Shown here: positions 5,365 to 10,118 of the stretch, piece after piece | How the letters are laid out: every line of letters begins with the position of its first letter | How positions within the stretch are numbered: position 1 is the stretch's first letter | NCBI RefSeq assembly: GCF_002028545.1 | Contig: NZ_MWPQ01000006.1 | Location: forward strand, 1 to 64,000 | DNA length: 64,000 nucleotides | Direction of reading: 5' to 3' | Source of the DNA: Nitrobacter vulgaris | Lineage (GTDB): Bacteria; Pseudomonadota; Alphaproteobacteria; Rhizobiales; Xanthobacteraceae | Position numbers and translations under genes: made by a program | The notes under the pieces: model-generated | The model's database searches: none | Seen by the model: only the letters and a program-made list of their open reading frames with translations | Told to the model about the DNA's origin: nothing

Positions 5365-5454
5365 TGGCGGAGAGGGAGGGATTCGAACCCCCGATAGGCT
5401 TGCACCTATGCCGCATTTCGAGTGCGGTGCATTCGACCACTCTGCCACCTCTCC
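5365..5454 (-). tRNA. tRNA-Ser (anticodon CGA)
   Basis: The minus strand from 5454 begins GGAGAGGTGGCAGAG and ends in an encoded CCA at 5367-5365. The acceptor stem (GGAGAGG with CCTCTCC), the T-loop (GGTTCGAATCC) and a long variable arm (GCATAGGTGCAAGCCTATC) give a class II tRNA of 90 nt. The anticodon loop reads CTCGAAA, so the anticodon is CGA, decoding UCG. The 3' end is partly duplicated at 1015-1037, which marks it as a likely integration target. Confidence 0.97.
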
Positions 5455-5804: not shown

Positions 5805-5842
5805 TGTTGTGAAAGGAGATCAGTGTTGTGAAAGGAGATCAG
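5805..5842. repeat. tandem 19 bp duplication at the 3' end of the ROK-like gene
   Basis: TGTTGTGAAAGGAGATCAG occurs twice back to back (5805-5823 and 5824-5842). The second copy contains the stop codon of the minus-strand kinase-like gene. The unit looks like a Shine-Dalgarno sequence on the plus strand but no gene starts after it. Confidence 0.7.
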
Positions 5843-6966
5843 TCCTTGGCTTTCCTGTCTTTCTTATCTTTGTCCTTTCCGTCCTCGAGATTCTTTTCTT
5901 TCTTGTTCTCTTTCCTGCGATTGGTGTAGCGCGCGTTGCCAAGGCCGGTACCGATGGTCAATACGCCCCAGCGTTTGACATCCTGCATGTAGGGCGTTTC
6001 GCTCAGACCTTGCACCACGCCGTCGTTATGCATGAGCACGGTAGTGTCGTGACCGCCGATCTCCGGAATGGCCTCGATCAGCAAACCCGGCAGGTTGAAC
6101 CTGCTGCTCTCCCAGTTCCCCGGAAGATTCTGCGCGCCTTTCTCGATCGATCCGTCCTCCTCGATTACGCCCGGACAGGAAATGCCGATGAAAGGCGCGA
6201 GCTTTAGCCCCTGTTTTTCCGCCTGCGAAATGAGGTCCTTCAGCATCTTCGCAAGTCTCTTCACCGCGCTCTCGCGGGTCGGCTCGTCGTCGGCATGGCG
6301 CCACAGCTCGGACTTCCACACCCCGGCCTTGGACAGGTCGGCAGCCTTCTTCCATTTCGTTTCAACCACTCCGCAGCGGATGTTTGTCCCGCCGATATCA
6401 ACCGCCAGAATGCTGTCGAACGCCTCGAAGATCCAGGAGGGCGCCAGATGCAGGCAGCCGATCAGCCCGGCTTCGTCGGGATCGAAGCGAATCGGAATCA
6501 GGTGGATTTTGTGACCCTCGCTTTTCAGCAACAGGTCGGCGCGAGCGATCGCGATCTCGCCGACACGGCTTTTGCGAAAGCCGCCGCCGACCACGATGCA
6601 TTCGGTGTCAGTCCAAGCCTTGGTCTTGAGGAAGCGCCCGGTCACATAGGCCAGTTCCTGCGCGAATTCCTCGATCGCGCCGTGCACCAGCGCCGCAGCC
6701 TCGATGTCATCGCCGACCAGCGTCTGATCGAGCGATCCTTTGCCGATCTCGGCGGAGGGGGTCTTGCCGAGAGGATCGTCGCCGTTTTTCTTCAGCGGTT
6801 TGCGCAGGTCGTCGAGAATTTTCCGGAAAGCCCCCCTACAGGCGCGGTCACCGAGAAAACCCTCCTCGTCCTTTAACTCGATGTTGTAGCTGTCGACGTC
6901 CACGGATGGCAGCCGCAGAACACCGTGCTTGCCGATGCCTGCGGTGCTTGCATTGCCTTCGGCCAT
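5839..6966 (-). CDS. ROK-family kinase-like protein with permuted motif order
   Basis: The product is 375 residues. The ATG at 6966 is preferred over the in-frame TTG at 7002 because AGCAGGGG lies just before it. Motifs of the actin/hexokinase fold are present but out of the usual order: CIVVGGGF (residues 123-130) and DEAGLIG (164-170), normally C-terminal in ROK kinases, come before the phosphate-binding DIGGTN (190-195). Then follow SCPG (263-266), MHND (312-315, with the Asp expected to be the catalytic base) and TIGTGLGNA (338-345). The zinc-binding CxCGxxGC motif of ROK proteins is absent. The last 25 residues are almost all Lys/Asp/Glu. A sugar kinase or a non-catalytic sensor are both possible; the substrate is unknown. 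The gene is divergent from the large secreted-protein gene. Confidence 0.75.
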   Translation of the reverse strand: MAEGNASTAGIGKHGVLRLPSVDVDSYNIELKDEEGFLGDRACRGAFRKILDDLRKPLKKNGDDPLGKTPSAEIGKGSLDQTLVGDDIEAAALVHGAIEEFAQELAYVTGRFLKTKAWTDTECIVVGGGFRKSRVGEIAIARADLLLKSEGHKIHLIPIRFDPDEAGLIGCLHLAPSWIFEAFDSILAVDIGGTNIRCGVVETKWKKAADLSKAGVWKSELWRHADDEPTRESAVKRLAKMLKDLISQAEKQGLKLAPFIGISCPGVIEEDGSIEKGAQNLPGNWESSRFNLPGLLIEAIPEIGGHDTTVLMHNDGVVQGLSETPYMQDVKRWGVLTIGTGLGNARYTNRRKENKKEKNLEDGKDKDKKDRKAKD

Positions 6967-7301
6967 TGCGCCCCTGCTGTTGTTGGTATTCCCGGAACAC
7001 AACGGCGTGGGAACCGGATGGTTGCAACGGCCCGGTCAAATCGTCGCAGCGCCGTCCGCTCGGCGCGGCCGATTCCACGGGTACATCGATCGAATCCCAC
7101 TGGAATCAGCGGGCTATGCACCCCCAACGCAGCGCGCCGCCCGGCCGGACAATCGGAGCATTGACCTTCCAGTTAACACCCGCGATACCGCTGTCTGGCG
7201 CCGCGAAAGGTTTGATGCTTACGTTCGGCGCAGACTGCAAGCCATTATTCAGACCCAGTTTTTCACGCCGCGTCGTTTCCGACCTATCAGGGCAATTCAT
7301 T

Positions 7302-10118
7302 GTGGGATTTTCTTACCGGAGCTGCTTGCTCGTAGCCGCCTGCACATTCGGATTCGCCGGTTCAGCTCTTGCAGCCGATCTCGCCGGCACCTGGCAAGGC
7401 AATTATTCATGCGGCGCAAACCGCAACATTGCCTTCACGCTCGACCTGCAACGGTCGGACACCAAATTCGAAGGCATTTTCCGTTTCGCTGCGCCGGAAG
7501 CGCGCGACAAAGGCGGCGCTTACAAAGTCAGCGGCAGCATCGATGCCAAGGGCGGGTTTACTTTCGTGCCGCGCGACTGGATCGAACGCCCTAGCGGCTA
7601 CACCGCGGTCGGACTGGTCGGACGCCTGCGTGACAATGGCCTGATGATCGAAGGCACTATGCCGGGCTGCGGCGGCATTGGCGACAATTTTACCGCCACG
7701 CGCAACACCCCCGCGGCGCCATCGGGTAATGCCGCGGCCGCGAATACGCCCGTCACCAAACCTCAACCGCCCAGCGGCGGCAAGCTTCAGGGACAATGGC
7801 GAGGCACCATAACGTGCACCGCGAAGCGGCGCGAACCCGAGACGCACGACGCGCAGGCCGACATCGTTCAGGACGGCGACCAACTGGCTGCGATATTTCG
7901 ATTTAAAACACTGAACAAGGCACGCCCCGGCGTTGCCGAGACCGCCGAACAGATCGTCGTTACCACCGGTCACGCAGACGGCAGCCAGGTGAAATTTGAC
8001 GCCGGTTTGGTAGTCGAGGGAAATCCGCGGTTTTCTTTCAAGATTGACGACGCGCTGCTCGATCCATCGGGCAAACAGCTGGCCGGCAACGTGACGGCGT
8101 CCGACTGTCAACAGATCAAGCTTGAACGACACGGCGAGAGCAAGCCCATCGCGTTCAACGCCAACGTGGCTGGTGTCTGGACCTACGCCGGCCGCAGCCA
8201 TACCGACCTGACGATGTCGTTTAGCAACGATGACTTCGCCGAATTGTTCGCCTCCATGCCCGACGATCAACCGCCCGCCGCGCGCGACCGGCTGCGGCGC
8301 GTGCTGGTGCCGCTTTACGTCAACGATCATCGGACCATTCTCATGGTGGCCGGAACTCGTGAGGCCACCGGAATATTTAGGCCCGAAGGTAGCGGTCCGC
8401 AGTATAATGTGCTGTCGCGGGCGCGCGCTTTCATTATATCGACCGTCGGTGACAACCTGTCTCTCGTGCCGGTGTTGAGCACGCGGGATATCTGGGAAGC
8501 GCCTGGGGGCGATGCACGGACCTCGCTGCGCAAGCCGCCCAATGAAATGCTGCTGACGCGTGCCGACCCAACCTTGCAGAAACAACTCGACGCGGGGCGA
8601 ACGCCACCGGTCAAGCTGGCGGATGGCATCGGTGGGCTGCTTGCCGCCGCGCCCTCGCGCCAAGATCAATGCACGGTGTTGCGAAACTGGATCGCGCCAT
8701 TTGCCGCCAGCACCGACCTCAATCGCATGAGTCTCGATGCCGGCACACGCGTGATCATGGATGCCTTCGCCAATAAAGCATTCGTGCCGGTGTTCGGCCT
8801 GCCGTTTGCGGACATGCAGGAGGCGCAACGGCGTTCGATCTGGGAGTTGATGCAAACCCATTGCATCCGCGCCATGAAAATCCAGGCGCTCAACAATCTG
8901 GTGATTACTAACCCGTTCTTGAATGAGCGCCACTTCGTCGACATCGCGTCGCTGTTGTCCAACCGCGCCGAGGCGGACAAGTGGTTCGACGAAATGGTCC
9001 AGACCGTCGGCCAGCTGCCGCTGGAGCGTCCGGCGCTGGAACGGATTGCCGCGATCGGCAAGGAGGCGGTGAGCCGCTACAACGACGTCGCACCGGCGAG
9101 GAAAGCTGCGTTCGAGGACAGCCTCAAGACCAAAACCAATCAGGTGCTTGAGAGCGTTTTCAATCAGGATCTGAAGTCGCTGATCGCCGCCGACGATAGT
9201 CTCGCAACATTGAGCAAGCTGTCGGACTTGCTCGGCACCATCGAGAAGTCGTCGCTGCCGCAAGAACGACGGCAAGTTCTTGTGCAGCAAGCGGCGCCGA
9301 AGGCGAATGCGATTGCGCAGCCGCTTTACGTCAGGGCGGTCGCTCAGGCCGAGGCAGCACCGCAATCGCTCGATGGACTCGCCGCCATCCGGCGCATCTG
9401 GGCCGAACTTGCGCCGGTGTCGCGCATGATGGCGGCGCATTTCACGCCGGACCGTGACGGCTCGTTGCGCGCCGTGTCGGCGCGCGAGCGCACTCTGTTG
9501 GACGACACCGCGATCCAGCAGGCGTTCCGGACAGCGATGCTGGCGGTCAAACCGGCGGGCGATCCGGAGACCAGCGTGCGGAACGAAGCGTTGAAATATG
9601 TCGACGCCCGGACCATCGACGACGGACCGGGCGCGATCGGGGCTTATCAGACCGCCGTCAACGACGGCGTCGCGCGCGCGGAAATGCGGCTGATCGATTT
9701 CAGCGAGGGCAGCGCCCTGGCCGAGCCTGGCGAGCCGACCGCGGAAGACATCTTCCTGCTGGTCAACCAACGGCTGACCAAGGCCAATCAAGCAATTCGC
9801 GATCTTGAGCGGCAATGCCTCTCCGGCGGCTACCGCAACGATCCGGTCCTCGGCATCGAGTGCCTGCAAATCCTGGCGCTGACCGGCGGCAAGGGCGGCA
9901 TGCGGGTGCGCCTGACTGCCTTCAAGAAAATCAGTTGCGCCAAGGATGCCGGTCAGGGCCGCTATCGCTGCCTGTTCTCGGTCTCTCATACCAGCAACAG
10001 TCCGGCGATCACCGGGCGGATGGGGCAGCTTTTCTCGGCGCCCGGCGTACAAGACAGTCTCTTCATCCGCAACACCGACGGCTGGACAATGGTCAGCGGA
10101 GGCCGCGGTTCCCGATGA
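7302..10118 (+). CDS. large secreted protein of unknown function
   Basis: Starting at the GTG at 7302 the product is 938 residues with a clean signal peptide (about residues 1-24, ending SALA before ADLAGTW). Another in-frame start, ATG 7215, would add 29 residues before it. Three N-terminal segments look like divergent repeats of a beta-rich domain: DLAGTWQGNYSC (about 25), KLQGQWRGTITC (about 160) and NVAGVWTYAGR (about 288). The first two each carry a Cys after the Trp-Gly core. The remainder, to about residue 850, is mainly helical with no recognised motif. The last 90 residues hold four cysteines (QCLSGG, ECLQIL, ISCAKD, YRCLFS) that could form disulfides. I do not recognise a family. 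The next gene, on the same strand, also encodes a secreted protein with the same FQGVWQN-like opening, so they may act together in the periplasm. Confidence 0.75.
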   Translation: MGFSYRSCLLVAACTFGFAGSALAADLAGTWQGNYSCGANRNIAFTLDLQRSDTKFEGIFRFAAPEARDKGGAYKVSGSIDAKGGFTFVPRDWIERPSGYTAVGLVGRLRDNGLMIEGTMPGCGGIGDNFTATRNTPAAPSGNAAAANTPVTKPQPPSGGKLQGQWRGTITCTAKRREPETHDAQADIVQDGDQLAAIFRFKTLNKARPGVAETAEQIVVTTGHADGSQVKFDAGLVVEGNPRFSFKIDDALLDPSGKQLAGNVTASDCQQIKLERHGESKPIAFNANVAGVWTYAGRSHTDLTMSFSNDDFAELFASMPDDQPPAARDRLRRVLVPLYVNDHRTILMVAGTREATGIFRPEGSGPQYNVLSRARAFIISTVGDNLSLVPVLSTRDIWEAPGGDARTSLRKPPNEMLLTRADPTLQKQLDAGRTPPVKLADGIGGLLAAAPSRQDQCTVLRNWIAPFAASTDLNRMSLDAGTRVIMDAFANKAFVPVFGLPFADMQEAQRRSIWELMQTHCIRAMKIQALNNLVITNPFLNERHFVDIASLLSNRAEADKWFDEMVQTVGQLPLERPALERIAAIGKEAVSRYNDVAPARKAAFEDSLKTKTNQVLESVFNQDLKSLIAADDSLATLSKLSDLLGTIEKSSLPQERRQVLVQQAAPKANAIAQPLYVRAVAQAEAAPQSLDGLAAIRRIWAELAPVSRMMAAHFTPDRDGSLRAVSARERTLLDDTAIQQAFRTAMLAVKPAGDPETSVRNEALKYVDARTIDDGPGAIGAYQTAVNDGVARAEMRLIDFSEGSALAEPGEPTAEDIFLLVNQRLTKANQAIRDLERQCLSGGYRNDPVLGIECLQILALTGGKGGMRVRLTAFKKISCAKDAGQGRYRCLFSVSHTSNSPAITGRMGQLFSAPGVQDSLFIRNTDGWTMVSGGRGSR

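Follow-up and report, generated by a model that had tools for sequence, protein, structure and literature searches.

The window, a 64,000-nucleotide stretch of the Nitrobacter vulgaris genome, carries on its minus strand a 375-residue open reading frame (P0001, translated from the window) whose motifs follow one another as VVGGG, DEAGLIG, DIGGTN, MHND and GTGLG (Table 1); the sequence in ordinary ROK proteins is DIGGT, ND, GTG, GGG. This direct reading agrees with an earlier note on this DNA, which had given the order as GGG, AGLIG, DIGGT, ND and GTGLG. The positions listed there for the last four motifs also stand, with DEAGLIG at residues 164-170; VVGGG, placed by that note at 126-129, runs from V125 to G129. 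Pfam recognizes a ROK domain at residues 187-349, which correspond to profile positions 2-141 of 294, with a score of 32.0 bits (curated cut-off 22.9), so that the N-terminal ROK part alone is covered. The counterpart of the C-terminal ROK part lies upstream of DIGGTN, where the match spans approximately residues 71-176 and takes in VVGGG, AGLIG and the end of the ROK chain.

A tRNA-Ser (cga) gene (5365-5454, minus strand), the sole tRNA gene found in the window, adjoins the permuted gene. Divergent from the permuted gene is a 1070-residue open frame (6906-10118, plus strand) that overlaps its start as listed; Pfam assigns this frame to no family at E 0.001, and a frame of 976 residues from Nitrobacter Nb-311A (L001) reads alike. 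By reading of the sequences, rplU, rpmA and obgE lie close to the permuted gene in the window, as they do in the four Nitrobacteraceae neighbourhoods read of the 20 compared, and no trehalose gene was read in any of these five.

Table 1. Features of the permuted gene and its upstream region, in window coordinates.
Feature	Position	Strand	Description	Basis
Sigma-EcfG-like site GCAAC-N16-CGTT	7001..7025	-	One mismatch to GGAAC-N16-CGTT; starts 59 bases before ATG	
Permuted ROK-type protein P0001, 375 aa	5839..6966	-	ATG 6966-6964, stop 5841-5839	Translation and family searches
N-terminal segment, residues 1-72	6751..6966	-	Residues 10-72 tested, without detectable ROK similarity	
Counterpart of ROK C-terminal part and start of link to DIGGT, residues 73-183	6418..6750	-	Weak single-sequence matches	Profile comparison
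DIGGTN, residues 190-195	6382..6399	-	Phosphate motif 1	Translation, Pfam match
MHND, residues 312-315	6022..6033	-	Presumed catalytic Asp 315	Translation, family conservation
GTGLG, residues 339-343	5938..5952	-	Phosphate motif 2	Translation, motif count
Tail, residues 351-375	5842..5916	-	Charged, poorly conserved	Translation, alignment

Relatives were sought by pattern in genome contigs, where at least 592 stretches matched and at least 470 encode a relative; the best 80 of the latter were taken for locus comparison. The nearest loci among these 80 belong to Nitrobacter (identity up to 91%), followed by Bradyrhizobium, Tardiphaga, Rhodopseudomonas and Afipia. A simple pattern search finds GGG before DIGG in one frame in 78 of these 80 loci, and the two pattern-negative loci show tblastn matches over residues 1-350 (L005) and 1-367 (L020). 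A profile built from 23 family members (A1), all of which match Pfam ROK at E 0.1 or better, was then used against three overlapping genome samples. In the order sample, 40 of 297 genomes gave matches, of which 38 were near-full-length and colinear and two partial only, and two genomes (G171 and G194) each carry two near-full copies. The phylum sample gave matches in 23 of 398 genomes (22 near-full-length and colinear, one weak and partial), and the class sample in 16 of 385, all near-full-length and colinear. Homologs with the same motif order, the search for which the earlier note had proposed as a check, are found by pattern among the 80 loci and as colinear profile matches in all three samples. 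The family is known from Nitrobacteraceae, from other Alphaproteobacteria and from beyond that class, where five genomes of the phylum sample (G324, G476, G493, G636 and G646) have near-full-length matches. Plasmid records hold 207 occurrences, mainly in Rhizobium (111) and Sinorhizobium (79), and neither phage records nor a viral contig scan yielded a relative. In Sinorhizobium meliloti 1021 the gene occupies positions 477083-478090 of pSymB. Two partial frames of 117 and 195 residues (L176, 5367-5720; L177, 5813-6400) could represent degenerate versions of this gene.

The lowest identity to P0001 in the set aligned is 47%. Across the 47 members compared residue by residue, no variation is seen at Asn 314, Asp 315, Asp 190 or Gly 127-129 (47/47), and GTG is kept in 46/47, with one gap. 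ROK proteins strictly conserve a catalytic Asp in the active-site loop (PMC5458393), a place presumably taken by Asp 315. The order GGG, DIGGT, GTG is present in 110 of 116 family sequences (six are unreadable by pattern), a count that was favoured by the selection of rows for permuted order; D[ILVM]GG[TS] is present in 116/116, such a pattern having partly guided their selection. Ordinary ROK proteins have the order DIGGT, GTG, GGG in 24 of 26 members of a first set (two unreadable) and in one of 13 members of a second (12 unreadable). The spacer between AGLIG and DIGG measures 19 residues in 107 of the 108 readable family sequences, and 7 to 46 residues follow GTGLG to the C-terminus across the 116. 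A single shared origin event would be the simplest reading of such uniform ends.

To relate each half to ROK, the profile of the 47-member family was compared by hhalign with the 26 ordinary ROK proteins (344 template columns). The C-half scores 61.1 and the N-half 42.6, with the N-half match falling on template columns 206-304, which is the C-terminal ROK part. By comparison, 150 column shuffles of the N-half give a mean of 15.4 and a maximum of 29.2, and the reversed N-half scores 17.1. The N-half also exceeds all 45 decoy families, some of which are shadow frames; the highest decoy score is 39.3, from an apparent FGGY kinase, which would belong to the superfamily of ROK, and the next is 33.4. 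The GGG/AGLIG block is therefore related to the C-terminal part of ROK, as the earlier note had supposed. Scanning the rotation points of the family profile in steps of ten, we obtained a best score of 90.2 at rotations 140 to 180, versus 61.4 in the native order. Rotation at residue 180 gives the longest match, of 295 aligned columns, which reaches the ROK end with both halves colinear. With the second set, whose 13 ROK proteins are more distant, the N-half reaches 40.1 (maximum of 150 shuffles, 25.7), and the rotated profile scores 104.1 versus 79.9 for the native one. Profile comparison of both halves, which match ROK in swapped order with either set, supports a true circular permutation, and P0001 would on these sequence grounds be the circularly permuted ROK-type protein that the earlier note had described.

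Single sequences carry this signal weakly. P0001 finds the N-acetylmannosamine kinase NanK (2aa4) by phmmer at E 0.15 when searched whole and at E 0.05 with the N-half, and its C-half is similar to 1woq at E 1.3e-4. The NCBIfam NanK model matches whole P0001 at E 4.7e-4 and a Phyllobacterium member at E 1e-5, the best stretch being the N-half in both, and the N-half match sits at the end of the model (226-286 of 288 for P0001, 214-285 for L139). When ten N-halves were searched alone, Pfam ROK was found in one (E 0.004) and NCBIfam NanK in two (E 0.054 and 0.0033); one of ten whole members searched (L163) matched no NCBIfam family at E 0.01. Among solved structures, the family profile matched ROK chains through its C-half only. 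Rotated single sequences gain hardly anything in Pfam over native ones, with 33.8 versus 32.0 bits for P0001 and 36.7/36.1, 31.3/31.2 and 37.9/37.9 bits for three other members. This weak gain counts against strong claims from single members, and the case for permutation consequently rests on the profile-profile comparison.

Neither the CxCGxxGC zinc motif (with x(E/D)) nor the sugar-contacting ExGH motif is present in any of the 116 family sequences (0/116 each), versus 22/26 and 4/13 for the zinc motif and 26/26 and 5/13 for ExGH in the two ordinary ROK sets. The zinc motif is absent as the earlier note had observed, but its absence is no special mark of permutation: in the two ordinary sets it is likewise missing from 4 of 26 and from 9 of 13 proteins, as it is from a solved NanK (PMC5458393) and from some accepted ROK kinases, so that this feature says little alone. 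Residues 10-72 were compared with the corresponding ROK stretch, and shuffles scored as high in 64/100 cases in local mode and 96/100 in global mode. The sugar/zinc region therefore seems to have been replaced, or to have diverged beyond recognition. The new ends do lie between GTG and the zinc/ExGH place, where the earlier note had the chain opened, but the region has not merely been opened. The segment is itself strongly conserved at H14, G15, P20, G39, D40 and F47, with His 14 in 46/47, Gly 39 in 47/47 and Asp 40 in 46/47 members. A rotated alignment had suggested that His 14 and Asp 40 are ROK sugar-site residues; we rejected this assignment, as residues 10-72 match no better than shuffles. 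Of the sugar residues of GNE named in the accessible part of PMC2742894 (N516, D517, E566, H569 and E588), only N516 and D517 have clear counterparts in P0001, namely N314 and D315. Given the motif order and the missing ExGH, we class P0001 as a ROK-derived permuted variant and not as an ordinary ROK member.

Upstream of the gene lies a promoter-like site. The sigma-EcfG consensus is GGAAC-N16-CGTT (PMC3892343), and our canonical search pattern was GGAAC-N16..18-(C/T)GTT. Of the 37 distant loci, 16 carry a canonical site ahead of the permuted gene, and in 14 of these it falls between -55 and -89 relative to the approximate start; among random stretches drawn from near and distant loci, 17 of 2320 have one. 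No near locus (0/79) has the strict GGAAC site. When the second base is left free, a site turns up between -110 and -35 in 68 of the 79 near loci, the window included, versus 12 of 2370 random stretches, a count that is no test of independent cases because the near loci are related and this relaxed pattern was set after viewing the alignment. In near loci the promoter block, at approximately -65 to -53, can also be read as GRAACC-N4-GGTTYC, which is an imperfect inverted repeat; a pattern for this repeat occurs in 59/79 near loci versus 14/2370 random stretches. The inverted repeat upstream of the permuted gene could bind a regulator.

Some neighbourhoods farther from Nitrobacter bring in trehalose and osmolyte genes. 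Among 40 distant loci, some of which are close relatives of one another, otsB-like neighbours were found in eight (one of these, L176, holds just a piece of the permuted gene), otsA-like neighbours in five and GH15-like neighbours in four; 32 of the 40 have no otsB-like neighbour. At L148 all three types were confirmed by profiles, and the GH15-like gene has trehalase as its best NCBIfam model, with a score below the model cut-off. Annotation places otsB beside the permuted gene in L140, L141 and L211. HWE histidine kinase-like neighbours appear in five of the 40 distant loci, one of them checked by profile. The gene divergent from the permuted one in a strain of Sinorhizobium meliloti carries the annotation of an osmoprotectant NAGGN system peptidase, a Phyllobacterium neighbourhood holds threonate genes and an aldolase, a Bradyrhizobium plasmid neighbourhood holds a ferritin-like gene and a dehydrogenase, and an Ensifer canadensis neighbourhood has no annotated osmolyte gene. 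Taken together, promoters and neighbours point to sugar turnover of trehalose or osmolytes in times of stress.

The genome of the window itself encodes other sugar kinases. Matches to PF02685 are carried by contigs C48, C21 and C64 and include two full glucokinases, so that the need for yet another glucokinase is not evident; on C64 two partial matches lie side by side. Genes of otsA and otsB type are present on another contig than the permuted gene. Together with the glucokinases, they suggest that the permuted protein would have a special role and not a housekeeping one. The other ROK protein of the genome (L082, 1117-1914 on contig C20) is polyphosphate-glucokinase-like. It resembles P0001 in its ROK match, in having polyphosphate glucokinase as its best NCBIfam model and in showing no zinc motif as read, but it differs in its ordinary order, its ELGH and its C-terminal Hva1_TUDOR match.

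We consider it probable that P0001 is a permuted, ROK-derived hexose kinase which acts under the sigma EcfG general stress response in the turnover of trehalose or osmolyte sugars. The old ROK C-terminus would have been joined to the old N-terminus, with 19 residues left between AGLIG and DIGG, and the large lobe would have been cut open beyond GTGLG to give new chain ends. A short link of this kind is plausible, since in ROK proteins the C-terminal helix sits within the N-lobe (PMC2742894, accessible part) and both ROK chain ends lie in domain 1 (PMC5458393, accessible part). As in ROK kinases, the two predicted lobes would still close over a hexose and its phosphate donor, ATP or polyphosphate; DIGGT and GTGLG would hold the phosphates, GGG would bind the adenosine, and Asp 315 would serve as the base. 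Conserved residues 1-72 probably replace the sugar-contacting ExGH/zinc part, or have diverged from it, which leaves room for a different substrate or different control. Probably made under the sigma EcfG response, the enzyme would most likely phosphorylate glucose or a related hexose, for example glucose released by trehalase.

That the permuted protein is no kinase, and instead binds sugar and nucleotide as a stress sensor or regulator, appears unlikely. The stress-type promoter, the family-wide absence of the ExGH and zinc motifs, the lack of a ROK match in the N-terminal segment and the two full ordinary glucokinases would all suit such a role, but a pure binder would have no need of Asn-Asp, DIGG and GGG in 47/47 members and of GTG in 46/47. 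That the motifs for phosphate, adenosine and catalysis have been kept would speak for an active kinase. A second alternative, which we regard as decidedly improbable, concerns origin: duplication and fusion could have brought together halves of two ROK genes from different lineages, the C-terminal half coming from one and the N-terminal half from the other. Either origin leaves the same motif order, and the halves of some members differ in their best model (NanK for the N-half and polyphosphate glucokinase for the C-half of P0001), but nothing found favours two sources, and the 19-residue spacer and the colinear rotated match fit either history. It is scarcely credible that a ROK N-terminal half has simply acquired an unrelated domain with coincidental GGG and AGLIG, for although single N-halves match weakly and residues 10-72 find no ROK match, the N-half profile beats 150/150 shuffles and 45/45 decoys with the first ROK set and 150/150 shuffles with the second, each time at the ROK C-terminal end.

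Beyond the proposed stress-related, permuted hexose kinase itself, we tentatively put forward a more far-reaching version, which is possible although we do not lean toward it: the family would be the first natural permutation of a ROK kinase of the actin/hexokinase superfamily, spread over hundreds of records in Alphaproteobacteria and beyond, with its ends at the sugar-binding loop, a segment of approximately 70 N-terminal residues forming the substrate site, and stress-time production of an enzyme with a new substrate or phosphate donor. Natural permutation, if true, would show that the large actin/hexokinase superfamily, whose members are two-lobed and bind ATP, has a topology able to tolerate reopening at the sugar loop. 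It would also correct the annotation of a protein in which Pfam sees half a ROK domain, and connect the general stress response of Alphaproteobacteria with the phosphorylation of sugars during trehalose or osmolyte turnover, a connection that can be tested directly.

Among ROK enzymes a natural rearrangement such as this would, to our knowledge, be unusual. Public records mostly name the permuted protein a ROK family protein, otherwise glucokinase or hypothetical protein. We found no report of a permuted ROK protein in open papers, and among them no paper joining the ROK family, trehalose, otsB and Rhizobium. In the parts of these sources available, the main text of PMC12696579 (2025, on glucose kinases) contains "permut" 0 times, that of PMC3892343 contains "ROK" and "glucokinase" 0 times, PMC2213659 is concerned with an ADP-dependent glucokinase and a gluconokinase, and PMC11387232 names another ROK member, SMa2004. 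Some permuted-family members give weak matches to the Group A glucokinases (PF02685), which form a separate family from the permuted ROK-type protein. The Group A enzymes are sugar kinases of the same superfamily as ROK. Fusobacterium nucleatum NanK resembles P0001 as a ROK-type protein without the zinc site, but, according to the accessible text of PMC5458393, it keeps the first three signature motifs, ExGH included, and has DxGxT at its N-terminus. With ROK sugar kinases at large (PF00480), such as the polyphosphate/ATP glucomannokinase 1woq and the N-acetylmannosamine kinase 2aa4, the P0001 family has DIGGT, ND, GTGLG and GGG in common. In contrast to them, it lacks ExGH and the zinc motif, begins with an unmatched segment of approximately 70 residues and carries the two ROK halves in swapped order.
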